Source: Amia ocellicauda
Taxonomy: Eukaryota; Chordata; Actinopteri; Amiiformes; Amiidae
NCBI RefSeq assembly: GCF_036373705.1
Contig: NC_089855.1
Location: 4,502,501-4,566,500, forward strand
Reading direction: 5' to 3'
DNA: 64,000 nucleotides
The notes under the pieces were generated by a model. It was not told where the DNA came from, made no database searches, and saw only the letters and a list, made by a program, of their open reading frames with translations. Within the stretch, counting starts at the first letter, position 1. Each line of letters begins with the position of its first letter. Position numbers and translations under genes: made by a program. This document shows, piece by piece, positions 397 to 63,000 of the stretch.

Positions 397-1610
397 CACT
401 CACCTAAAGGATTATTAGGAACACCATACTAATACTGTGTTTGACCCCCTTTCGCCATCAGAACTGCCTTAATTCTACGTGGCATTGATTCAACAAGGTG
501 CTGAAAGCATTCTTTAGAAATGTTGGCCCATATTGATAGGATAGCATCTTGCAGTTGATGGAGATTTGTGGGATGCACATCCAGGGCACGAAGCTCCCGT
601 TCCACCACATCCCAAAGATGCTCTATTGGGTTGAGATCTGGTGACTGTGGGGGCCAGTTTAGTACAGTGAACTCATTGTCATGTTCAAGAAACCAATTTG
701 AAATGATTCGACCTTTGTGACATGGTGCATTATCCTGCTGGAAGTAGCCATCAGAGGATGGGTACATGGTGGTCATAAAGCGATGGACATGGTCAGAAAC
801 AATGCTCAGGTAGGCCGTGGCATTTAAACGATGCCCAATTGGCACTAAGGGGCCTAAAGTGTGCCAAGAAAACATCCCCCACACCATTACACCACCACCA
901 GCAGCCTGCACAGTGGTAACAAGGCATGATGGATCCATGTTCTCATTCTGTTTACGCCAAATTCTGACTCTGAATGTCTCAACAGAAATCGAGACTCATC
1001 AGACCAGGCAACATTTTTCCAGTCTTCAACTGTCCAATGTTGGTGAGCTTGTGCAAATTGTAGCCTCTTTTTCCTATTTGTAGTGGAGATGAGTGGTACC
1101 CGGTGGGGTCTTCTGCTGTTGTAGCCCATCCGCCTCAAGGTTGTACATGTTGTGGCTTCACAAATGCTTTGCTGCATACCTCGGTTGTAACGAGTGGTTA
1201 TTTCAGTCAAAGTGATTCAAGCTGATAGAAGAGCAAGTCGGCCCATTCTCCTCTGACCTCTAGCATCAACAAGGCATTTTCGCCCACAGGACTGCCGCAT
1301 ACTGGATGTTTTTCCCTTTTCACACCATTCTTTGTAAACCCTAGAAATGGTTGTGCGTGAAAATCCCAGTAACTGAGCAGATTGTGAAATACTCAGACCG
1401 GCCCGTCTGGCACCAACAACCATGCCACGCTCAAAATTGCTTAAATCACCTTTCTTTCCCATTCAGACATTCAGTTTGGAGTTCAGGAGATTGTCTTGAC
1501 CAGGACCACACCCCTAAATGCATTGAAGCAACTGCCATGTGATTGGTTGGTTAGATAATTGCATTAATGAGAAATTGAACAGGTGTTCCTAATAATCCTT
1601 TAGGTGAGTG
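397..1610 (-). mobile_element. DD36E Tc1/mariner transposon, copy 1 (broken)
   Basis: A full-length 1,214-bp element lies between TA dinucleotides. Its 29-bp terminal inverted repeats begin CACTCACCTAAAGG and are identical at both ends. It is the sister of the copy at 33086-34306, with only about 8-9 substitutions, so both inserted recently. The transposase frame on the minus strand is broken twice. Seven bases are missing near 971 relative to the sister, and a 22-bp block at 1214-1235 is inverted, creating a stop. The element therefore cannot code for its own transposase but keeps both termini and could be moved in trans. Confidence 0.93.
429..1462 (-). pseudogene. Broken DD36E transposase
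   Basis: Three consecutive minus-strand frames (1462-1217, 1210-887, 938-429) together cover the 346-residue transposase that is intact at 33118-34158. The N-terminal frame carries the helix-turn-helix region, the middle frame the first catalytic Asp (WSDES), and the last frame the second Asp (QQDNAPC) and catalytic Glu (NPIEHLWD). The breaks are the 22-bp inversion and a 7-bp deletion. The catalytic triad itself is unmutated. Confidence 0.92.
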
Positions 1611-5249: not shown

Positions 5250-6511
5250 GTATGGCACTTCACGTCTAGATCGCCGCTCTCCTGGAGAAGCGAGCAATTT
5301 GCGAACCGCCACCTCAGGGTGATGCGCTTCAGCATGGCTCAACCTGCAAATCATGTCCCAGGCCATCAGGCCCGGCGATTGGTTAATTTCAGTGGATCTG
5401 ATAGTTGCTTACTTTCACATCCCTATTGTGCAGGTGCACAGGAAGTTCCTCCGCTTCGCCTAAGAGGGCCGAGCATTCGAGTTTGCTGTTCTGGCCTGTC
5501 ACTAGCCCCACGTACTTTTTCCAAGTTCATGGACATCGTGTTCGGGGCTCCACGTCTTCAATTATGCGCTGGCGCCAGAAATAGTTGACGCTATACACGT
5601 GTGTCTCTCCCTCTTCTGACTGAGAGCTCACGTCAGGGTGTCCCCTTGCCAGAGGCTGCTGGGCCTTCTAACGGTAGCATCACAGACCCTCCCCATCAGC
5701 CTCCTCTGATTGAAGACGCTGCAGCAGAGGTTCGAGTCTTTACAGATGCATCCTCGTTGCGATTATGCACGCCGAGTCACAGTCACTCTGCCCTCACAAT
5801 TTGACCCTCGGTGTGCCCCTGGGTAAGTCTACCACAGAGCAGTCATGACGACAGACACTTCCAAGCAAGGTTGGGGAGCAGTCTGCGACGGACGTGGAGT
5901 CAGCAGCAGGTGGATGGAGCCTGCACTGGCCCTGCATATTATCATCCTGGAGTTACAAGCAGTACTCCTTGGACTGTCTCATTTCCTGCCATTCCTACAG
6001 AGAGACGTGCTGGTTTGGATGGACAACACAGCGGTGGTTGCCTATATCAACAGGCAAGGGGGTCTCTGGTCATGCAGACTGTATTGTCTAGCATGCCGCC
6101 TGCTTCTGTGGGTGCAGCCATGGTTCCGCTCCATCAGAGCAGTTCACCTCCCAGTCCTGTCCAACACATAGCGGCGGACCTCCTTTCTCGGGGAGGCCCT
6201 CCGTTCTCAGTGTGGTGCCTCCACCAGTTTGTGATACAACAACTGTGGAGCCGGTTTGGCAGGGCGGACGTGGATCTCTTTGCCTTGGCAGAGTCCACAT
6301 ACTGCCCACTATGGTTCTCCGTCCGAGTCCGCTCAGGAACCCTAGGGATTGACGTGCTAGCCCACATATGGCCGTGCTGTCTCCTTTACGTTTTCCCACT
6401 ATTCCCCCTGGAGAAGGTCAGGAGAGAACGAGTGACAGTTCTGCTGATAGCCCCACAGTGGTCTCGCAGATTCTGGTTTGCAGACCTGATTGCCCTACTC
6501 CAAGGAGAGCC
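5250..6511 (+). pseudogene. DIRS reverse transcriptase / RNase H fragments
   Basis: Overlapping plus-strand frames (5319-5588, 5845-6171, 5811-6515) carry RT and RNase H segments: a decayed copy of the RT block around the DAYF region, FGLALAPRTF-like residues (SGLSLAPRTFSKFMD), the RNase H core, and the typical DIRS C-terminal region. At least two frameshifts and an internal loss between 5590 and 5840 make it non-functional. Confidence 0.85.
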
Positions 6512-8930
6512 TTGAGGGTGCAGAGGTGTGGTCCTGGTCTTGTGGATGCCCAGCTGGTGGCACATGGCTGAGAACACCAGCGACTCATAGTTGCCACCCT
6601 GATTGCTGTGGATCTCCATAGGAATCCCAAAACAGGTGATGAAGCCTTTAATCAAGGCCTCCATAACGGTCTCAGCCTCCTGGTCCGGCAGAGCATAGGC
6701 TTCTGGCAACTTCATGAAATAATCAAGGGCCACTAGCACAAAATGATTTCCCTTGTCAGACTGGGGAAAGGGCCCTAGGATGTCAACCCCGACCCACTCC
6801 ATGGGTCCGCTGACCAGAAACTGTTGAAGGGCTGCATGGGTCCGGCCTGTGGGTCCTTTCTGGGGCAGTACAGCTGTGGCAGTGGTGGCAAAAGTCTGAT
6901 ACATCTCTTTTACACTTCCCCCAATAGAAGCACTGATGCAGGTGGTGCAGACTTTTTGTGACACCAAAATGCCCAGCCTCTGGGGTGCCATGATGAGCTT
7001 TCAATACTGTCCCTCTTAAGGTCTTGGGGACCAGCACCTGCCACCTCACTTCGCCTGTGGCTGGTTCCGTCCAGCCCCGCTGCAGAACTCCATCTCGAAG
7101 GGACAGATTTTCCCACTGCAACCACAACATTTTTGTGGATGGGGAGTAAAGGGCTATTTCATCCCACAGGGGTCACTGTTGCTCTTTCAGCCACTGAAGC
7201 ACTGGTTGTAGATCCACGTCCTGCACCTGTTGACACCTCCACTCCTCAGTCAGTCAGTTCCCAGCAAACAATTACTTTGGCGTGGCGAACTTCAGCCCTT
7301 GGGGTATCAACATCTCCAGGAGATCTCAACTCTTCCTCCAGAACCTCTCTCTTCTCACAATAGCTACAACCATCTCTATTACAAGGTCAGCGGGATAGAG
7401 CATTCACGTTGGTGTGATGGCTTCCCCCCGATGCAGGAGTTTAAAATTCAGAGCCTGCAGCTGTTTAATCCAGACCTTCTGGTTCTTTGAAAGTCATTAG
7501 CCACTGCAGGGCAGCATGGTCTATCCTCACAATGAAGGGCAGGCCAAGGATGTTTGTGCCTGAAGTGCCAGACTGTGGCAACCACAGCTAGGAGCTCCCT
7601 GCTGGTGACACAATAGCAGCGTTCGTTTGGGCACTCCTATGACCTCAGCCTGGGCCAACACAGCTCCAATCCCTTCATTATTGGTGTCGGTGTCCAGTAT
7701 AAATGGCAGGTTAGGGTCTGGTGGAAAGAGTACTGGAGACTGTGACAGGGCCTGCTGTAAAGTGTTAAAGGCTGCTTGTTGTTCTTCTGTCAACATGAAA
7801 GGCTTGTTTTTGCGTAGGAGCTTATACAAGGGAGCTGTAAGAGAATTTGATATGCTTGGTTTTTCAGTCAATCTAGTTGAACTGAAAACTCATAGGCCAA
7901 TTGGTTTCTCTTTTAAGATTCTTTTTACAGGGAAGATGTGGTCAAGTCACAGATGTGCAATTATCATTTATTTGTGACAAAAATAGCAAACTAATATCAT
8001 TCAATTATATTACTGAAAATAAGTAATATTAAGCTTCTGCTGGATTACAGAAAGAAAACAGATAATACCAATTTTCTTCTTCCGTTCTCCTTTCTCTTTG
8101 TCTGTTTCTTCTGTTATAAGATTTTTCTTGAACCAATCACATTTTGCCAACATCACACCATATTTCAGTATGGCAGTAAGAAACCTAACTTTGGCCTCTT
8201 TGAGGTGTCTGACCTTGTACTCTTATCTCTAGTTTAACTGCTAGGAGTTCACCTTGGAATCTCAGGAACTACGCAAAAAGAGGGAGATGTGGATTTTCCT
8301 GGATCAAACCAGACAGCAAGATATTCCCCATAGAAAAATACATTCTAACAAATAATATCTTACAGAGCCGCTATACTGGAGAAGCCCCTCACAAACCATT
8401 TATAGTAGGAGGCAAGGCCCAGGAACCTCCAAAGCTGCCACTGGTCAGTGGGAGTGGGCCATTATGGAGTCATTTTGTCAGTCACAGTGCTTATTCCCTC
8501 TCCACCAATCCAGTGACCTAAAAATTTCACCTCCCTCTGCATAAAGCGGCACTTATTGGGGTGAAGCTTCACTCCAGCTGTGGCTATTCTCTCCAGCACC
8601 CTCCTGAGTGCACACAGGGCCGACTGGAATGATGCACCATGCACCAGGAGGTCATCAAGGTAAGCCAGGCACTCTTGCCATGGGATGCCAACCAGGAACT
8701 TCTCTATTAGCCGCTCAAAAGTTGCAGGGGCATTGCAGAGTCTGAATGGCATGACACGGAACTGCCATAGACCGCTGCGGTTTTGGACTTTGCAGAAGGT
8801 GACAGGGGCACTTGCCAGTAGTCACTCTTCAGGTCTAGTGAAGGGAACCAGGATGATCCTGCTACCAGGTCCAGCATTTCATGAATGCGGGGGAGGGGGT
8901 ATGAATCTTTGTGTGTCACCTCATTTAGTC
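6512..8930 (-). mobile_element. Decayed Ty3/gypsy element (RT-RNaseH-INT order)
   Basis: This is a minus-strand pol remnant in conventional order. RT is at 8930-8365 (THKDSYPLPRI, then the catalytic YLDDLL box as AYLDDLLVH), RNase H at 7871-7527 (AAFNTLQQALSQSPVL...ILDTDTN), the zinc-binding H2C2 region at about 7130-6850, and the integrase core to 6512 (GVDILGPFP...VALDYF). It begins abruptly inside RT at 8930 and ends inside the integrase at 6512. Stops and frameshifts occur throughout. About 0.5 kb of foreign AT-rich DNA (roughly 7845-8365) interrupts it between RT and RNase H. Confidence 0.88.
7845..8365. other. Insertion inside the gypsy element
   Basis: Gypsy pol coding similarity stops near 8365 and resumes near 7860 on the minus strand, while the DNA between is AT-rich and has no coding resemblance to pol. 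Boundaries are approximate and I could not identify the inserted family. Confidence 0.5.
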
Positions 8931-14475: not shown

Positions 14476-14549
14476 GCTCTGAAAAAAATTAAGAGACCAC
14501 TCCAAGTTCAGAAATCAATGTTAAGTGGTCTCTTAATTTTTTCCAGAGC
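14476..14549. repeat. Short palindromic foldback element, copy A
   Basis: The inverted arms GCTCTGAAAAAAATTAAG...GACCACT and AGTGGTCTC...TTTTTTCCAGAGC surround a central CCAAGTTCAGAAATCAATG. The sequence resembles Tc1-family termini and forms a near-perfect hairpin. A copy in reverse orientation lies at 15778-15853, on the other side of a Tc1 body. Confidence 0.8.
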
Positions 14550-14589
14550 CGGCCAGGACGGGGACTCAGAACTCGGATCTCCCGCATCA

Positions 14590-15775
14590 CTACTGCTGAC
14601 TACTTCTTCCCAAAATAGTTCTTCCATAGTTTGGAGCTGTGCTTTGGGTTACTGTCCAGTTGTAGGAGGAAACTGACTCCAATCAAGCGCCGTCCAATCA
14701 TGGCATGGCATTGCAAAATGGAGTGATAGCCTTCCTTCTTCAAGATCAATTTAACCTTGTACAAATCTCCCACTTTACCACCACCAAAGCACACCCAGAC
14801 ACTCACATTGCCTCCACCATGCTTGGCAGATGGCATCAGGCACTCCTCCAGCATCTGTTCATTTGGTCTGCATCTCACGAATGTTCTTCTTTCTGAACAC
14901 CTCAAACTCAGATTCGTCTGTCCATAACACTTTTTTCCAATCTTCCTCTGTCCAGTGTCTGTGTTCTTAATCTTTTCCTTTTATTGGCCAGTCTGGGATA
15001 TGTCTTTTCCTTTACAACTCTGCCTAGAAAGCCAGCATCCTGAAGTCGCCTCTTCACTGTTGATGTTGAGACTGGTGTTTTGTGGGTACTATTTAATGAA
15101 GCTGCCAGTTGAGGACCTGTGAGGCGTCTGTTTCTCAAACTAGACACTCTAATGTATTTGTCCTCTTGCTCAGTTGTGCACCGGGGGCCTCCCACTCCTC
15201 TTTCTATTCTGGTTAGAGCCAGTTTGCGCTGTTCTGTGAAGGGAGTAGTGCACCGTGTTGTACGAGATCTTCAGTTTCTTGGCAATTTCTTGCATGGAAT
15301 AGCCTTCATTTCTCAGAAAAAGAATATACTGACGAGTTACAGAAGAAAGTGCTTTGTTTCTAGCCATTTTGAACCTGTAATTGAACCCACAGTTGCTGAT
15401 ACTCCAGATACTCAACTAGTCTAAAGAAGGCCAGTTTTATTGCTTCTTTAATCAGCATAACAGTTTTCAGCTGTTCTAACATAAATGCAAAAGGGTTTTC
15501 TAATGATCAATTAGCCTTTTAAAATGATAAACTTGGATTAGCAAACACAACATGCCATTGGAGCACAGGACTGATGGTTGCTGATAATACGCCTATGTAG
15601 ATATTCCATTACAAATCAGCCATTTCCAGTTACAATAGTAATTTACAACATTAACAATGTCTACACTGTATTTCTTATCAATTTGATGTTATTTTAAGGG
15701 ACAAAAAATTTGCATTTTTTTCGAAAACAAGGAAATTTCTAAGTGACCCCAAACTTTTGAACAGTAGTGTATATA
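14590..15775 (-). mobile_element. Tc1-like transposon, decayed
   Basis: Three minus-strand frames (15415-15170, 15195-14908, 14905-14600) spell out a Tc1 transposase from the start methionine MARNKALSS through the paired-like DNA-binding region (STVKRRLQDAGF) to the part before the second catalytic Asp (decayed as QLDSNPKHSSKLWKNY). The last quarter, with the third catalytic residue, is gone, and frameshifts separate the pieces. One terminal repeat is visible at 15705-15775 (CCAAACTTTTGAACAGTAGTGTATA); the other end is lost. Confidence 0.88.
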
Positions 15776-15777
15776 AA

Positions 15778-15853
15778 GCTCTAGAAAAAATTAAGAGACC
15801 ACTTAACATTGATTTCTGAACTTGGAGTGGTCTCTTAATTTTTTTCCAAAACT
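15778..15853. repeat. Short palindromic foldback element, copy B
   Basis: This is the reverse orientation of the element at 14476-14549: its centre TAACATTGATTTCTGAACTTGG is the exact reverse complement of the other copy's centre. It abuts the terminal repeat of the Tc1 element on one side and another Tc1 remnant on the other. Confidence 0.8.
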
Positions 15854-22130: not shown

Positions 22131-23379
22131 TTATTTTAATGGTAGGTGTATTTTAACAGTGAGAGACAGAATAACAACAACAAAATCCAGAAACACGCAT
22201 TTCAAAAAAGTTATAAATTGATTTGCTTGTTAATGAGTGAAATAAGTATTTGAAATGCGTTTTTCTGGATCTTTTTGTTGTTATTTTGTCTCTCACTGTT
22301 AAAATACAATCATGAACTCCAAACTGTTAAACTTATCTGAACTTCGTCGCAGAGAGGCCTCTCTGGCTTCGGGCTCAGATAACAGCACACGGCACGAGGT
22401 CCGTGTGGTTGGAACAAAGGCAGTCCGGTTCGGCTTTGTCCAATAACTTCCACTCAGTCGATGCACCTGGAAGTTGGGGTTTCGCGAAAGAAGAGTCGTT
22501 TCCAAACAGAATTTCCACTGGTTTGAAGGCTCCAAGGTTGTGCACAAAATCTTCTTTGCAAGCAGGGTTTTTCCACCGTAGTTACTTGAAGACAAAGTCT
22601 TTGAGGAAAGCAGGGCCCTGTTCGTTTCCATTGGTCAAGTTTCTTAAGACTCAAATAGCTTTTTAAATGACTGACCACTTTCGTATTCAGTCGACTTAGT
22701 CAATTGTCCAGCTGTAAAACTCCACTGATCAGATGGGTACAGGCGGGCAGCGCAGTTTCTAAAGTTCTTCAACTGAATAAAGTTCTTTAAAGAATTCTTT
22801 GTACGGCTCAATCTCCTTCTCCCAGTTTAACTCGTCTGTTGCCGGCAAAAACTTAGTTGGTTCCTGGTTCCAGTTCTGGCAACAGAGCTACAGGTTGAGT
22901 TGTGGCAGCGAGTTACTGGTTCAGGTGAGAGAGAGAGAGTTGCTGTGCGTTACCCTTTATATGCCTGTCAGATCAATAGGTGATTGGTTCTTGAGTTTGT
23001 GAGATTGGATTTCGGTTTCAGCTCCCAGTGTCCTATTGGAGGGAGGCTTGATTTATGACTGATGTCAATCCATGCCATCTTTGGAAATGCCGGTTGGCCC
23101 GGGTTCATAGCTCTGTGCCTGGATTTCGGCTCTCGTCCATTTCAAAGAGTTTTTATTACCTACAGGCCCCCTTCCCCAGACATCTCACAGCAGGGATTCC
23201 AAGCTATTTGGCCCATTCTCGGTGCCATCCTCCCAAGACTGCAACTTTGATGTAGAACAGTTCACATGCTGATGAGCTTAGGAAATCTGATAACTTTGGG
23301 GAAGAGGTCTTCTTTAGATCAGAGTTCAGCTCAGAGCTAAAATGCTCTTATCAAAATACACCCCCCACTTAACACTACA
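22131..23379. mobile_element. 1.25-kb insertion in the Gmr1 pol gene
   Basis: The segment is flanked by CTGG at 22127-22130 and 23380-23383. Removing it with one CTGG rejoins the pol frame without any change. On the minus strand it starts TGTAGTGTTAAGTGGGG, like an LTR, but the other end (TTAAAATAA) is not the usual CA. It contains the foldback at 22148-22307. It may be a solo LTR altered at one end, or a composite. Superfamily unassigned. Confidence 0.65.
22148..22307. repeat. Tc1-derived foldback
   Basis: Two ~59-bp arms (22148-22206 and 22249-22307), starting GTATTTTAACAGTGAGAGAC and ending with its near-perfect inverse, flank a 42-bp loop. The arm sequence resembles the terminal region of a common fish Tc1-like family. 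Confidence 0.8.
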
Positions 23380-23383
23380 CTGG

Positions 23384-24326
23384 TCTCCCTGAGAAGACGT
23401 CCCTATTCTTCTCTACAAATCTTTTCACTTCCTCGGTCTGTACTGGAGAAAGTGTGGCGGCAATATTCACCTCAGGGGATCCTAGGGGTTCTGTTGGGAA
23501 AGTAAGTATGGACACTAATGTCTCCTTGTCCTTCCAAACTTTGACCAAATTAATATGATATTCTTGCTCCAGTGGCTGACAACTTGGCTGCCGGACCCTA
23601 CAGTTGACTTCCCCCACGTTTCTCGAGCTATGTCCAAAATTCCTGGGGGTGTCTTCCATACCATAGTTTAAATGGTGAAAACCCAATTGAGGATCATGGC
23701 ACCTCACATATAGCAAACATGAGGTAAGGTAAAAGAAAATCCTCCTATCTTTGTCAATGGCTTTTCTAAGCATTGACTTCAAGGTTTTATTAAACCTTTC
23801 TACCAGGCCATCAGTTTGTGGGTGGTACACGGAGGTCTTTAATTGTTTTATTTTAAGGAGTTTACAGAGATCAGCCATTACTCATGACATGAATGGGGTA
23901 TACTGGTCAGTCAAAATTTCCCTTGGAATTCCTACTCTACTAAACATGAGCATAAGCTTCTTTGCAATTCCCATTGTATGTAAGGGAACGATTAATTGTA
24001 CGATTCTGGATATTGGGTTGCATAATCCAGTATTACCAGAATGTACTGGTGCCCCCTAGCAGATTTTGATAATGGTCCTAACAAATCCATTGCAATGCAA
24101 TCAAATGGTGTTTCTATAATGGGCAATGGGACCAGTGGGCTCCTGATGGGAGGTTTGGGAGTTGTCTGTTGACACTCAGGACATTCATTACAATGTTTGA
24201 AAACCTCCTATCTCTGGATGAGCACCTAAAATATGGCCATGTGCTAAGTAAAGCATTGTTCTTCTGTATTTCGAGGGTACCATAAATGCTCAATTACTTC
24301 AACCCCTATTTTGTCTACCCGGTACA
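23384..24326 (-). pseudogene. Gmr1-like integrase fragment
   Basis: The minus strand shows the zinc-binding region (CNECPECQQ at about 24185), a decayed catalytic core, and the block DGLVERFNKTLKSMLRK (23811-23760) followed by the C-terminal YHINLVKVW motif. It then runs directly into the pre-RT linker (VKRFVEKNRDVFSG). About 60 residues between the core and the C-terminal motif are deleted. The integrase-to-RT linkage shows the non-standard pol order directly. Confidence 0.85.
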
Positions 24327-32811: not shown

Positions 32812-33085
32812 TATATTACATACATATTTCATACCTTCTTTGCTGCTTGAAGTTAGATAGCATCTGTCAATCCACCTGTGCTTTCATTTGAGCTATATAA
32901 AAGAAAAAGAAAATAAGTACTGGTAATTAATATATTGCACTTTACAAGCTAAATCCTTTACCATTGTCTAGATTACTTTTGACTTGTCCTTATAAGATAA
33001 ACTAAATACATGTTTATGCTTAATTAATCACAGGTTCAATTGGACCAACATTATTAATTCAAAAGTTTAATATTTACAGAACATA

Positions 33086-34306
33086 CACTCACCTAAAGGA
33101 TTATTAGGAACACCATACTAATACTGTGTTTGACCCCCTTTCGCCTTCAGAACTGCCTTAATTCTACGTGGCATTGATTCAACAAGGTGCTGAAAGCATT
33201 CTTTAGAAATGTTGGCCCATATTGATAGGATAGCATCTTGCAGTTGATGGAGATTTGTGGGATGCACATCCAGGGCACGAAGCTCCCGTTCCACCACATC
33301 CCAAAGATGCTCTATTGGGTTGAGATCTGGTGACTGTGGGGGCCAGTTTAGTACAGTGAACTCATTGTCATGTTCAAGAAACCAATTTGAAATGATTCGA
33401 CCTTTGCGACATGGTGCATTATCCTGCTGGAAGTAGCCATCAGAGGATGGGTACATGGTGGTCATAAAGGGATGGACATGGTCAGAAACAATGCTCAGGT
33501 AGGCCGTGGCATTTAAACGATGCCCAATTGGCACTAAGGGGCCTAAAGTGTGCCAAGAAAACATCCCCCACACCATTACACCACCACCACCAGCCTGCAC
33601 AGTGGTAACAAGGCATGATGGATCCATGTTCTCATTCTGTTTACACCAAATTCTGACTCTACCATCTGAATGTCTCAACAGAAATCGAGACTCATCAGAC
33701 CAGGCAACATTTTTCCAGTCTTCAACTGTCCAATGTTGGTGAGCTTGTGCAAATTGTAGCCTCTTTTTCCTATTTGTAGTGGAGATGAGTGGTACCCGGT
33801 GGGGTCTTCTGCTGTTGTAGCCCATCCGCCTCAAGGTTGTACGTGTTGTGGCTTCACAAATGCTTTGCTGCATACCTCGGTTGTAACGAGTGGTTATTTC
33901 AGTCAAAGTTGCTCTTCTATCAGCTTGAATCAGTCGGCCCATTCTCCTCTGACCTCTAGCATCAACAAGGCATTTTCGCCCACAGGACTGCCGCATACTG
34001 GATGTTTTTCCCTTTTCACACCATTCTTTGTAAACCCTAGAAATGGTTGTGCGTGAGAATCCCAGTAACTGAGCAGATTGTGAAATACTCAGACCGGCCC
34101 GTCTGGCACCAACAACCATGCCACGCTCAAAATTGCTTAAATCACCTTTCTTTCCCATTCAGACATTCAGTTTGGAGTTCAGGAGATTGTCTTGACCAGG
34201 ACCACACCCCTAAATGCATTGAAGCAATTGCCATGTGATTGGTTGGTTAGATAATTGCATTAATGAGAAATTGAACAGGTGTTCCTAATAATCCTTTAGG
34301 TGAGTG
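33086..34306 (-). mobile_element. DD36E Tc1/mariner transposon, copy 2 (intact)
   Basis: A 1,221-bp element between TA sites (33084-33085 and 34307-34308). The 29-bp terminal inverted repeats are perfect and begin CACTCACCTAAAGG. It contains one uninterrupted 346-codon transposase and nothing else. Structure, size and near identity with copy 1 (397-1610) indicate recent activity; copy 2 has every feature needed to be autonomous. Confidence 0.95.
33118..34158 (-). CDS. Tc1/mariner transposase, DD36E type
   Basis: An uninterrupted 346-residue transposase that would cut and paste its own element at TA sites. Residues 1-120 form the paired-like helix-turn-helix region (QLLGFSRTTISRV at about 30-42; a second motif at 85-115). 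The catalytic triad is Asp155 (WSDES), Asp246 (FQQDNAPC) and Glu283 (NPIEHLWD). Thirty-six residues separate the last two, as in the DD36E (Incomer) family rather than classic DD34E Tc1. The ATG starts just inside the terminal repeat region and the stop is 32 bp from the other end. No key residue is missing. Expression from flanking promoters is possible but not shown. Confidence 0.93.
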   Translation of the reverse strand: MGKKGDLSNFERGMVVGARRAGLSISQSAQLLGFSRTTISRVYKEWCEKGKTSSMRQSCGRKCLVDARGQRRMGRLIQADRRATLTEITTRYNRGMQQSICEATTRTTLRRMGYNSRRPHRVPLISTTNRKKRLQFAQAHQHWTVEDWKNVAWSDESRFLLRHSDGRVRIWCKQNENMDPSCLVTTVQAGGGGVMVWGMFSWHTLGPLVPIGHRLNATAYLSIVSDHVHPFMTTMYPSSDGYFQQDNAPCRKGRIISNWFLEHDNEFTVLNWPPQSPDLNPIEHLWDVVERELRALDVHPTNLHQLQDAILSIWANISKECFQHLVESMPRRIKAVLKAKGGQTQY

Positions 34307-34308
34307 TA

Positions 34309-38533: not shown

Positions 38534-41500
38534 ATGTCGTGGTATTTGATGATTGCAGCTCTCCTCATCTGTGCCACTGACAACAGCAGCACAGGTATGT
38601 TCTGCACCGAGACAACCATGGTCAAAGATTTTCTAATATAAACATACATTTTTAAGAGTATAGTTCATGTATATGAGTGAAAAATGTATGCACACATGTT
38701 TGCTGTCTCCAGCCTCTCTCACAACTGTAGCTGTTGCCTCTTGTCTCCACTCAGCTGCAGATCTGGTCTCTTCCAGCCCAGACTCGGCACAAACAGCAGC
38801 GCAGACACTCGCTCCTCTCGCACAGAATAGGCACACATCCACACCACTGCCAAACACTGCGCCCGGGCTCCTTCTCTTTAATAAATGGATGGACACATTT
38901 ACTTCTCCAGGCTGCAGCTGTGGCCTCTGTCTCTGTCTCTGGATCTGATTTAATGATTGTGGAGAGTCGGACGTTAGGCCCCCGCAGGAACAGTGGGGTC
39001 GCTGTGATCAGAGATATATAGGGGTACCGGTTCCCACTGGGGTAAGAGTAGTTTGCAACCAGACTCCGCCCAGTTTTGTTTCAGTAAAGAGGTCTGACAG
39101 TAAACCTGTTGCACTTACCCTCTTATAATCTGTTGTTTTTTAACTGGCAAATCCAGCTAGCTCGCTCAAAAACAATACAATACAATATAGACAAGCACAT
39201 AGTGTCCTTTAGCTGAGGTCAATAGAACACAAATTTAATGTTATATCCAAGTAAAGTATAGTTTAGAACTAAAAAGGAATACATACATATTTAAATGAAT
39301 CTTAAAAAATATTAAAGAGGTTGCATTAATCTAAAAACAAATAACTAAAAATAATAATAATTAGGTAAACAAATGCCTGCATCATATCCTTGTATATTCA
39401 GGAAACTGGTCACATTTAAACATAATACATAGTTAAAAAATAGCACATTTTAGATAACTAGTAAACATCTCTGCCCACATAGCGCCCTAAGCAAGCTACT
39501 GTATACAATTTTCACAAAAAGAAAACTATCCCACAGTCTCTGTATGTGTGGCTGTGCTCATCACTGAACTCTGTGCTCTTCTCTCCAGGCAATGACTGCA
39601 TTGTTGGGGTCATTGGGGAAGCCACTGTCCTGCCCTGTCACTACACAGGAGAGGAGAGACTGGAGCAGAGAAACATTGCCCTTGAATGGAGGACAGACAG
39701 TGTTGTTGTGCACAGCTTTGTTAATGGAGAGGATGTGCTGAATAAACAGGGCAAGAACTACCACAATAGAACCCATCTCTTCAAACAGCACCTGGAGAAA
39801 GGGAATTTCTCTCTGCGACTCTCAGATACAGGGAAGGAAGATGAGCAGCACTATAAGTGTCTTTATTATTCTAAAAGTATTAAGAAAACCATACATCTGA
39901 ACAAAATGTGCCTCTCTGTTGCAGGTGAGGGATGTTCTCTTATCTCAGTCCTTTGGTTCAGTGCTTCATTAGCAGAGACATGTGGGTTTAGACACAGCGC
40001 TGCCATCAGCGCTGCAGTACTGTAGCTGATCAGGACACACGCTGCACAAGCTCACACGGAATAATGTGAAGAAAAACACTTGTCTGTTCAACCAAACTAC
40101 TTAAGAGTCTCTCGTTTATATTGCTGGGTTTTTACTAGAGCAGTTCTGCTCAGTTACCCAAACCCTGTGGTTCCCAGTCCAGATCACAGGAGCTACCTGT
40201 GGATGTACTGCACAGATTATATGATGTATTTTAACCGTTTGTGTTAAATTATTATACAACCTTTATTGATACCCAGTATAACGGTGCCCTGCTCCTCTCC
40301 ACAGCCCATTACTCAGAGCCAGGGCTGCACAGAGTCCCAGTCCCAGAGGGAGGAGACGCCCAGTTCAGCTGCTCCTCCTCGGGGGGCTTTCCTGAGCCCA
40401 GGGTCCACTGGCTGCTTAACTCGCAGCGCCCCCCTGTGGACATAGTGAACACAGTCTATACTCAGGACCCTGTCACTGGACTGTACAGAGTCTCCAGCCG
40501 CCTCAATATCACAGTCAACATCACACAGGACATCACTGTGAGCTGCACCATTGAAAACCCCCGACTCAACGAGAGCAGGAGCTCAGCCACCCATCATTGT
40601 AAGGGTTTGTGGTTCATAACAAAATAAAATGCTTTGTCTGTATGCCTAGTTGCCCACATACATTAAAGGTAAATTCATCATAAACTACTAACTTTTCTTT
40701 GTAATAGAAGTTTAGTTCATATGGGAAGTGCACAAAACTTCATAATAGATGCATTAATAAAAGTAATGTTTAAAAAAATGTATTAATTTATGCTGAGTAT
40801 AAGGAAATGCCTAAATATACTAAATTCAGTAATCATGGTTTCGGTATATCTGTTATTAAAATCACCGCTTTTGAAGTCAGTAAGTCTAAGTCGACATGCC
40901 ATGACATCACACACCAGGTGCAGAGCTGCAAAATTAGCATGTTGTTTTTAACAGAGAGAAAACTAGAACCCAGAGGGGATATAACTCAGGCTTTGTCCAC
41001 ATTTCTATTACTGTAATGAATAAATAACAAAACCCAACTTCCACACTGAGAGTCTGTTTGAGGTCTGCTGATCTGGCAGTTCAGGTATGGAGGGACAGGA
41101 TCTGTGCTGAACTCTTCTTTCACTTTGATTTCAGATCACAGACAAACGGAGGATCAAAATGAAGGATCAAACTCTCTCCTGATAGCTGGAATAGTTGTTG
41201 CAGTGGCAGTAGCTGTAGCCGTGGCTGTCATTGTCTTACTGAAGAGGAGGTCATTGTGTAGGGTTTGTGGGAGACATCTACAGCATAACCAGAGTAAGTG
41301 AGCTGTGTGTGAATCATCTATTAGTGTCCGTGATGCACTGTGACACTGTGTTAATGTGTCAGTATGGGAGCTGCATTGTGTGTGTGTGACAGGTGCAGTG
41401 TGTCAGGGTGTGTGCGTGTCTGTGTGTGAGTGTGTGTGTGTGTAGTTTATCAGTGGGACCCCAGGACAGTGGGGATGTCCTGAGGAATCCTGCACACCCC

Positions 41501-50994: not shown

Positions 50995-51310
50995 TAACAT
51001 AAGAAAGTTTACAAATGAGAGGAGCACCTCATCGCGCTTGTTTAGTGTCCATGAATAACTAAGTGATCAAGGATCCTATCCAGTCTGTTTTTGAATGTTC
51101 CCAAATTGTCTCTTCAGCCACATCGCTGGGGAGTTTGTTCAGGTTGTGACGCCTCTCTGTGTGAAGAAGTGTCTCCTGTTTTCTGTCTTGAATGCCTTGA
51201 AGCCCAATTTCCATTTGTGTCCCGGGTGCGTGTGTCCCTGCTGATCTGGAAAAGCTCCTCTGGTTTGATGTGGTCGATGCCTTTCATGACGTTGTTCATG
51301 ACTTGAATCA
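50995..51310 (-). mobile_element. CR1-like LINE 3' end
   Basis: The minus strand encodes the C-terminal end of a CR1/L2-type ORF2 (MKGIDHIKPEELFQISRDTR followed by a decayed HFFTQR-type motif). A 3' untranslated end follows with an AACATAAGAA tail unit. It is the same family as 56080-56410 and 60144-60255. Only the 3' end is present, the usual LINE truncation. Confidence 0.82.
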
Positions 51311-55605: not shown

Positions 55606-56410
55606 ATCTTGCCTGCCTGGTGCTCAGGTTGCAGATCTCCCTAAACTAGTAGACGGGCTACTGGCCAAAGCCTGGGGCAATCCACTGGTCATGGTCCACA
55701 TTGGAACCAATGACATAGGAAAAGGTAGGACAGAGGTTATGCAAGACAAATTTAAAGAGTTAGGAAAGAAACTAAAGAGCAGAACCTCAACGGTAGTTTT
55801 CTCTGAAATACTTCCGGTACCACGTGCATGGCCAGGGAGACAGGCAGAGATTAGAAAGTTTAACACGTGGTTGCAATCTTGGCGTAGAGAGAGGGACAGG
55901 AAAAATTGAAGAGGTGGTGGGGTAGCATTATATGTCAGAAATGACATTGAGGCAGAAGAACTCAAATTAGATCCCATTAACGAAACAGAATCTTTGTGGG
56001 TTAAACCTTTGAACAAGAGATCTGGAGGATTAGTGGTAGTGTGTTACAGACCAAAAATGGAAGCATCTTAGAAAAATAAGAAGATGTGGCAAATGTTCAT
56101 GAAAGGCATCGACCACATCAAACCAGAGGAGCTTTTCCAGATCAGCAGGGACACACGCGCCCGGGGTCACAAATGGAAATTGGGCTTCAAGGCATTCAAG
56201 ACAGAAAACAGGAGACACTTCTTCACACAGAGAGGCGTCACAATCTGAACAAACTCCCCAGCGATGTGGCTGAAGAGACAATTTGGGAACATTCAAAAAC
56301 AGACTGGATAGGATCCTTGGATCACTTAGTTATTAATGGACACCAAACGAGCACGATGGGGCGAATGGGCTCCTCTCGACTGGACACTGTCTTATGCTCT
56401 TATTTTCTTT

Positions 56411-60012: not shown

Positions 60013-63000
60013 CTGGGGACCAGAGGAGCAACAGGAGGGACAGACAGGCCCACGATTAGCACGTGGGAGCAGAACACACACTGAATATCACGACAGCTGT
60101 TTCTACACAATATTTCTCAGCTCCAAAGAAGGATACATTCCCTGATCCAAGGATACTGGATAGGATCACTTAGTTATTAATGGACACCAAATGAGCACGA
60201 TGGGGCGAATGGGCTCCTCTCTTTTGTAAACTTTCTTATGTTCTTATATGTTCTTCTGTGAGGTTCGCAAGGTGATGTTTGCAAGAATAAAGTATGCTGA
60301 AAGCTTTTCCACCCCAGGATGAGAAAGTATAGATGCTGTTAAGTAGATAATACCTTCCCGTAGTAACAGCGCTCTCTCCACGGTGCTGTTTGGTGCCGCC
60401 AACTCCACTGGTCTCTTCCCCTCACTGTTTCTGCTTTTCACATCTGCTCCGTAATCGATCAGCATCTCCACCAGGTTGGCACTGGATTTCCGGGCAGCCG
60501 CGTGGAGAGGGGTGTCTTGGAGTCTTCCCTGGTGGACATTCGCTCCTGTGTTTTGTGAAACAAATGTGACTTTATATTGCTGCGCCTTGTTTATCATATG
60601 TATTAACAACATGCATTGTAACAGCAGGTCAAAAACAGGAATTGCAACCTTCGGAAGCTGATATCTCACTGTTTACAGACAATGTTCATATCTGTCTTTT
60701 AATTTATGTATTTAAGTGATGAATGTAAGCTGACAAATCTTGAAGATGTCTCTAACAATAATATGCACGTTTACTACAATAACTCTTTCTTTCAATATTG
60801 AATACAACCCTACAGCTCTATCACTGCCAATTTCATGTCAGTTTAAACCCAATACCATGGAATAGACTTTTCTGATTTGCACATAGAATGTCTGTAGTAA
60901 TACTTTATACTACATAATACTTTATTAATTTCAAGTTAAAACAGGGAAAGACACCAACCTAGCTGCAGCAGCTTCCTCACACAGTCCGTCCTCTGAAACG
61001 TGCAGGCAACATAAAGAGGGGTCCCCATCTGAGGATGCTCTTGGTCAATGTTCACTCCATTTGTCAGTAAAATCTCCATACATTCTCTGTGGCCTGGTAG
61101 AGCAAACAAACCAATATCATACATTTACACATCTTAAATAATTGATAGTAATGAAGTGTTTCTACTGGGTGATTTTCTAAAGGCTTACATATTGCAACAG
61201 GGAAATTGACAAAGACCTGGTATAGTTTTGTGTGATTTAATTCATTAATCTCTTCCATTTTACTGTAATTCACTGTCGGTTGGATATGACCAGTGAATTG
61301 CATTTCGTCCGTTCGCTCCGGCGATCCCCCAGGTGTCCATTGATCTTCATCTGTTTTAGGAGAAGCTCACGATCTCCTCTGGTCCAGGAGAAACTGTGTG
61401 AAGTGCTGTTAACACTTCATGTCCCCGGCCTGGCAGTGAGGTGTCAGCTTGGTACTCTGACATGTCCTCTCTCTCTCCCTCTCATGAACTGGCAATGCAA
61501 AGAGTCTTTTACTGATTAGATGTGTTGTGTGCAGCCGGGGGGATCGCTGTTCCTGCTGTGCGGCACTTTACTGTGAATTGGCAGCACACATAATGACTAA
61601 ATAGATATGTCTCTCTAATTTATTTACTTTAATCATTTCATACATCTTTGATTAAGGAATATAACTGACTGTTCTATATTTAATGTATCTGTAGTGTATT
61701 CCTCCTTCTACTTTTCAGCATTTTTCTTTCATGAATTAAACCCAATGAATAATGAACATGACTGAATCCAGTTAAATGCATAAGAGATGCTTCCCACTAC
61801 TACATTAGAGAACAAAATCAAGAAGAGCATCCTTCCTAGGGGTGGCAGTATTATTCTTCCACAAGGGCTTGACCCTAATGAGAAACTGACAGTCACCGCA
61901 AAGCCTTGGTTAACAATAAGTGACAAACTATTCCCCAGGGTTGATTACCTTTGAGCATCACAAGCACAATGTATCGACTGGATGATTAAAAAGCTTTCAG
62001 TAGTATTCCTTATGTGGTAAATTGGGACACCCAATCCTGGCAGCACACATAATTCAATAATGGATAAGGGCATCTGCATATAAATGTGATAATAATTACT
62101 CCTCCTAAACTGCATTGTGATACAGTTTCTCACAAGGATTTCCCTTGAAATGGAGAGGGAAGTTCTGCATCAATAAATTAATGTGAAAGAAGTTGGACAT
62201 TTTGGAATCTAGTTTTATTTGTGTAGATTAAATATATCTATTATTAAAAATGTGATTGTTATTTGACCTGTCCTGTGCTGTATGTTTTTTAAAATGATAA
62301 AGCAAATGTTTTATATATATTCTAAATGTCCTAACTGATATATGTTATCTCCACCTTGCCAAGTACCATATATCATTCGATTTAATTTATCTGGGCTAAT
62401 TCTGTTTGTTTAAGAAACGCAAAAGCATCTTCACTATCACATCCAAGACATTATTTATCTGTCTATATATGTCTATGTAAGCATTTGTTGCATTTTTTTC
62501 TGCCCACCAGGAATAATCAGGAAATAATTACTTTAAATTATGATATCCCTTCCAGATGGAGAAAGAATAAGACAAACAGCCGAAAGGATCATGCATTCGT
62601 ATCACTCAGACATAGGACACTGTCTCATACCACACCTCGTTTTGTGGCTTCGTGAATTGGCGATGCCAGCTGGCAGTCCACCTGCGGGCTCGGCCCGTAC
62701 TCCAGAAGCACGTTGACGCAGGCTGCACTGCCGCTGCAGCAGGCGTTGTACAGAGGAGTGATGCCGTCGATCGTGACCGAGTTCACCTGAGAAAAAGAGA
62801 CGTCGAGAGATAAAGCCACATTAACCACTGCCGGAAATTCAACCGGACCAAGTAATAAGTTGGAACACCCAGCCACCTATGGCAAGCCACATTATCATTT
62901 AGAGATATCTTTAAATGCATTTCAATACATCATCAAATATTTAGAGATATCTCTCAATCATTTACAGATATATTTATATAATTTAGAGATATCTCTAAAT

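Follow-up and report, generated by a model that had tools for sequence, protein, structure and literature searches.

A repeat-free 22-bp micro-inversion shared by eight transposase-truncated copies of an Incomer-like DD36E transposon in Amia ocellicauda

The window, a stretch of 64,000 nucleotides (C6:4502501-4566500), carries two closely related Tc1/mariner elements, the features of which are collected in Table 1. With their TA dinucleotides, the elements extend over 395-1612 (copy 1) and 33084-34308 (copy 2), and both possess 29-bp perfect terminal inverted repeats (TIRs). Copy 1 measures 1218 bp including both TAs, and its two ends show 31 perfect terminal bases when the TA is counted. Outside the block described below, 8 substitutions separate the two copies over about 1.2 kb, and copy 1 has a 7-bp deletion relative to copy 2 between 968 and 969, not mentioned in an earlier, sequence-only reading of this DNA. 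That reading had placed the young element in the DD36E group, and the assignment was confirmed on copy 2, in which D155, D246 and E283 form the catalytic triad and 36 residues separate the second D from E. Residues 119-346 of the copy 2 transposase match the catalytic domain of Sleeping Beauty (5cr4, E 6.7e-42), and the first helix-turn-helix match covers residues 11-47 of the intact frame. The triad spacing, the TIR length (within 22-32 bp, in both window copies) and the TA target site are those of Incomer/DD36E elements; a transposase of about 346 aa with two helix-turn-helix parts and a DDE domain is found in copy 2 only, copy 1 being truncated. Judged from its sequence, the family has the features of Incomer/DD36E, the assignment being made by triad, length, TIRs and TA.

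Table 1. Coordinates of the two DD36E elements and of the inverted block in the window
Feature	Position	Strand	Remarks
Incomer/DD36E Tc1-mariner element copy 1, inverted allele	397..1610	-	TA at 395-396 and 1611-1612
Copy 1 left terminal inverted repeat, 29 bp	397..425	+	
Copy 1 right terminal inverted repeat, 29 bp	1582..1610	-	
7-bp deletion site in copy 1 relative to copy 2	968..969	.	frame shift
Inverted 22-bp block	1214..1235	.	exact reverse complement of 33910-33931; 1213-1236 equally valid
Leftover N-terminal transposase frame of copy 1, 81 aa	1217..1462	-	stop inside inverted block
Incomer/DD36E element copy 2, normal order	33086..34306	-	TA-flanked
Copy 2 open transposase frame, 346 aa	33118..34158	-	HTH_23, HTH_Tnp_Tc3_2, DDE_3 Pfam matches; DD36E
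Normal-order counterpart of block	33910..33931	.	

Other repeats and frames were also seen in the window. Long inverted arms at 51068-51289 and 56097-56319 (98-99%, about 4.8 kb apart) are perhaps the ends of another DNA transposon, and 69-bp inverted arms, 99% complementary and 1.2 kb apart, lie at 14481-15846. Two integrase-core frames on the minus strand, at 6386-6991 (rve, 3.9e-9) and 23375-23878 (rve_3, below its cut-off), are likely retroelement remains. At 39546-40025 (+) there is a V-set immunoglobulin-like frame that narrowly misses the Pfam cut-off, and at 60244-60669 (-) an ankyrin-repeat frame.

The block in copy 1 is the exact reverse complement of its counterpart in copy 2, with the same flanks and no change in length, as the sequence-only reading had claimed. 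When the two copies are compared, 18 of the 22 positions differ in forward orientation and none (0/22) after inversion, which excludes chance. The next bases outward (T at 1213, A at 1236) also fit an inversion, so a length of 22 or of 24 bp is equally good. The block agrees with the definition of a definite micro-inversion given in the part of PMC8755829 drawn on here, namely an exact reverse complement of at least 17 nt with no length change. Exactness, which had been presented as unusual, is itself usual, since 45 of 59 human-chimpanzee cases described there are exact (PMC8755829). The effect on the coding sequence stands: copy 2 is open for 346 aa, and in copy 1 the frame is 81 aa long and runs at its end into the inverted block, which encodes the final residues.

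To count the inverted allele, the window's own assembly (988 Mb, 385 contigs) was searched with a 39-base pattern across the block and both junctions, allowing up to 3 mismatches. Eight matches were obtained, every one with 0 mismatches, by a search blind to copies that lack one junction or carry more than 3 changes there. They lie on four chromosomes, at 3.438, about 3.461-3.462, 3.545 and 4.504 Mb on C6 (the last being copy 1), at 29.529 and 29.567 Mb on C5, at 45.378 Mb on C1 and at 36.100 Mb on C18, and the edges of the block are identical in all of them. The normal-order block in the same frame gave 16,619 matches (at most 3 mismatches), and backwards-read control patterns of the inverted and the normal-order form gave 0 matches each in the assembly. 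The inverted allele thus occurs in other genomic copies, and an event inside copy 1, as first proposed, is ruled out: L053, a copy on another chromosome, has the inversion, the 7-bp deletion and all 5 substitutions by which copy 1 departs from the majority. Assembly error in copy 1, named at the outset as the finding that would overturn the inversion, is very unlikely in view of identical junctions at eight places of the assembly sequence. More generally, an assembly or sequencing artefact, which would have to produce the same junctions at 8 places on four chromosomes next to different linked markers, deserves practically no credence. Among 61 further, uninverted copies scanned (49 + 12), a small sample, no other inversion of 10-60 bp was found.

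The eight inverted copies were compared with 39 uninverted copies, marker positions being columns of the element alignment with the 7-bp deletion collapsed. Besides the block, no substitution or indel common to all eight was found in this comparison. Three marker sets were recognised. Set I comprises copy 1 and L053 (C18), with 63A, 387C, 507G, 645G, 753A and the 7-bp deletion. Set II comprises L047, L049 and L051, with 641T, to which L049 and L051 add 315T and 426A. Set III comprises L050 (C5) and L052 (C1), with an 11-bp deletion, 589T, 790T and 991G. Patterns requiring an exact context, and therefore blind to copies altered next to the marker, gave genome counts, inverted copies included, of 25 for 387C (22 uninverted), 19 for 63A (16), 40 for 641T (39), 44 for 426A (42), 7 for 991G (5) and 4 for the 11-bp deletion (2); 790T with a normal left junction was found in 150 copies, all uninverted. 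Single SNPs were rejected as lineage markers, each recurring in uninverted copies, and therefore only the co-occurrence of markers was used.

Among exact-context matches, 3 copies in the whole genome combine 63A with 387C, and all 3 are inverted. The pair 426A and 641T was matched in L049 only; L051 also has both, but changes next to 641T keep it from matching that pattern. The 5 uninverted 991G places are all distinct from the 2 uninverted 11-bp-deletion places, and none of these seven is among the 790T places listed, in which the contigs concerned are all covered. When 20 of the 22 uninverted 387C copies were fetched, 63A was present in 0 and 507G in 2; the 11-bp deletion, 589T and 790T were absent from both of the uninverted 991G copies fetched (2 of 5). 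The joining of marker sets only in inverted copies favours descent of each set within the inverted copies. The marker 507G was by judgement taken as recurrent, since it sits in a CCA repeat and is found in uninverted copies of two samples (2/39 and 2/20).

The 790T copies are unevenly placed. Among those listed, many normal-order copies lie on C10 at 40.8-44.1 Mb and on C20 at 35.1-35.8 Mb, and many others on small contigs such as C188, C219, C230, C241 and C252, as if one element copy had been amplified with a larger repeated region. In L053, four substitutions within 8 bp (alignment columns 872-879, about 25 bp from the block) are absent from its sister copy 1 and possibly record a second small copying error.

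The 7-bp deletion was rejected as a marker of the inversion. Its junction has 36 genomic matches, 2 at inverted copies and 34 at uninverted ones, on several backgrounds. The 7 deleted bp start with TCT and a further TCT follows; the deletion is probably a recurrent microhomology deletion between TCT repeats. From the 36 places 30 were extracted (L009-L038), two of which (L016, L024) are inverted copies already in the set; L010, L026 and L027, split or gapped, were left out of the alignment, and L087 and L088 are partial copies. A further 13 copies (L054-L066) came from a ranked list in which 40 of 604 candidates were scored. The query for that list carries 753A, and the presence of 753A in these copies is therefore a selection effect.

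The flanks of the inverted copies were compared over about 4-5 kb for seven copies and over a shorter stretch to the left of copy 1. The only near-identical pair is L047/L048 (C6, 3.433-3.467 Mb, 24 kb apart), which agree at 98.9% over 5.8 kb rightwards from the left end of the element, the adjoining left flank being unmatched. Through these two copies, part of the C6 cluster is owed to local duplication. What L047-L049 and L048/L051 have in common is limited to diverged stretches (86-91%), as expected of dispersed repeats, and in L051 and L053 the element is embedded in simple repeats on one or both sides. In L048 the left part shows the set I markers 63A and 387C, the right part the 641T, 645A and 646A of L047. 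The left part has 3 differences to copy 1, 9 to L047 and 4 to the nearest uninverted copy; the right part has 4 to L047, while copy 1 and four uninverted copies each stand at 5. The mixed markers and the changed left flank are best read as a crossover between two elements, which makes L048 (C6, about 3.461-3.462 Mb) a probable recombinant of two inverted elements, the margins of these counts being small.

The three sets lie close to one another, I and II within 0.96 Mb on C6 and II and III within 37.7 kb on C5. With the sets placed independently along a genome-length line, both proximities arose by chance in about 5.5e-6 of 2 million draws, with thresholds taken from the data and L047/L048 counted once. 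One way to account for neighbouring sets that have no common marker near the block would be a single origin followed by short-tract ectopic gene conversion, which would have carried the block from one sublineage into adjacent elements of another. That elements do recombine is suggested by L048. Conversion of this kind would place the block beside marker sets known from uninverted copies, and a whole marker set was seen in none of the uninverted copies: the pairing of 63A with 387C is confined to inverted copies, neither fetched 991G copy has the other set III markers, and the remaining uninverted 991G and 11-bp-deletion places coincide with none of those set III markers for which places were available, the listed 790T places among them. 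Two of the 20 fetched uninverted copies, which combine 387C with 507G, are the exception. On this evidence, gene conversion is regarded as unlikely.

To place the inverted state on the history of the element, a maximum-likelihood tree of 65 copies was built with the block removed (L054 and L070 left out). The best tree needs 3 changes of state, and its starred branches force at least 2. In 200 bootstrap trees, 0% place the eight inverted copies on one side of a branch, and the 5-95% range is 3-5 changes. In 500 label shuffles the mean was 7.7 changes and none was as low as 3; the clustering of the labels is real, though near-copies alone cause that. Holding the eight copies together costs 12.7 log-likelihood units (AU p = 0.0545; 0.0568 without L048), which nearly rejects one clade. 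A starred branch (95/88) unites copy 1 and L053 with the uninverted L078, the three having 387C and 507G in common. A single origin is weakened by this grouping, by the 3-change tree and its AU value and by the lack of a shared extra marker; it is favoured by the identical edges in 8/8 copies, by the proximity of the sets and by the low expected rate of micro-inversion given below. If the block were a mobile allele, moved between neighbouring lineages by gene conversion or arising repeatedly at a repeat-free fragile site, the element tree and the history of the block would disagree; the odds are clearly against this combined reading.

The sequence around the block was inspected for a cause of the flip, which the sequence-only reading had ascribed to template switching or to a cut-and-flip repair. 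No perfect inverted repeat longer than 2 nt was found with inner edges within -5..+4 of the block, and in register at the edges there is the T/A pair only (1 nt). Elsewhere in the element such repeats are common, 848 of 1,131 test positions offering one of 3 nt or more. A gapped comparison of the flanks gave nothing above 3 matching bases, a score as low as at any position, and DNA folding revealed no hairpin tendency at the site (z = -0.15). On these grounds a template switch steered by a hairpin or by inverted repeats next to the block was set aside as unsupported; a switch with 1-2 nt of homology or a two-break flip remain candidates. The first choice is an error of copying that needed no more than 1-2 nt of homology, by template switch or microhomology-mediated break-induced replication, and two-break flip repair is the alternative; from the sequence the two cannot be told apart.

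How often such an event would be expected was estimated from ape rates, at which micro-inversions are about 2e-5 as frequent as substitutions (2e-13 vs 1e-8; PMC8755829, as far as its text was available). Uninverted copies carry about 8 substitutions each (median of 32 rows, leaving out L022, L037, L054-L057 and L060, whose counts were taken as inflated, their mutated block being unmasked). For 16,619 copies this amounts to about 1.3e5 substitutions, with shared ones counted more than once, and hence at the ape rate 2-3 micro-inversions are expected in the whole family and three at one site are not. If the site were fragile and the same inversion had arisen independently in two or three copies, this would agree with the 3 changes on the tree and the AU value against one clade, and micro-inversions that recur in the absence of stem-loops have been described in birds (PMC3123225, in the portion available). 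The site here lacks both a hairpin and any inverted repeat longer than 2 nt, the edges are the same in every copy, the sets lie close together and the expected rate per site is tiny on the ape figures (PMC8755829), and such recurrence is considered quite improbable.

In all eight inverted copies the transposase frame is cut short. It stops by residue 81 of 346 in each: six keep 80-81 aa, L049 ends after 6 and L050 after 32 residues. The ends are retained, the outermost 10 bases including the TA being intact at both ends in 8/8 copies, and L048 has one change inside its left TIR. The copies thus share one lesion, have usable ends and occupy several insertion sites, L047 and L048 partly one site, as is expected of a transposed defective subfamily. 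Since all eight frames are truncated, these copies were presumably moved by the transposase of other copies. They are also clustered, four within 1.07 Mb on C6 and two within 38 kb. This arrangement would fit local hopping of the kind described for Sleeping Beauty in frogs, where about 80% of re-insertions fall within 3 Mb according to the section of PMC3271037 used here. A selected or functional role of the inverted form, such as inhibition of transposition by an 81-aa DNA-binding product, could be imagined from the six copies whose 80-81-aa frame covers the first helix-turn-helix match. Eight copies against 16,619 are no sign of success, and the frames of 6 and 32 residues in two of the eight speak against such a product, which makes this role very doubtful.

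Taken together, the data are probably explained by a single micro-inversion followed by passive, trans-mobilised spread with local hopping. The 22-bp block would have arisen once, during the burst that produced the more than 16,600 copies of the family, in one Incomer (DD36E) element close to the majority sequence. With a truncated transposase and usable ends, this element and its descendants could then have been moved in trans, often to nearby sites. The outcome would be a small subfamily of defective elements, with 8 copies known and one of them (L048) probably recombined. The flip is probably an ordinary rare mutation hitchhiking on moving copies, and not an error or a new mechanism.

The block is a new example of known things and overturns no known biology; what remains of interest is the missing edge repeat and the mismatch between the distribution of the block and the element tree. 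A limited literature search found no report joining the words microinversion, transposon and subfamily. An exact micro-inversion free of repeats serves as a natural barcode for one defective transposon lineage in a burst of more than 16,600 copies, by which trans-mobilisation, local hopping and recombination between copies can be gauged.

Defective Tc1/mariner copies with a broken transposase and usable ends are mobilised in trans to several insertion sites. The inverted copies resemble them in all three respects and differ in being marked by an inversion, not by a deletion or point change. Compared with Incomer (IC) of Rhinella marina (1225 bp, 346 aa, 29-bp TIRs, as given in the part of PMC6875036 drawn on here), the present family agrees in its length of about 1.2 kb, the 346-aa transposase, the DD36E triad, the 29-bp TIRs and the TA target site; unlike Incomer as described there, copy 1 and 7 other copies carry an inverted block and a truncated frame. 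As in the homoplastic micro-inversions of birds, which are known without stem-loops (PMC3123225, same portion), there is no stem-loop at the site; recurrence was shown across species in birds, whereas here one origin is favoured, though unproven. In size and exactness the block (22 or 24 bp, exact) is like the human-chimpanzee micro-inversions (17-33 nt, 45/59 exact), and it differs from them in its edges: by the account in the available text of PMC8755829, all 59 definite cases there are flanked by inverted repeats 3 nt or longer, which in two cases fall outside -5..+4, an observation and not part of the definition, whereas the edge repeat of the present block is at most 2 nt.
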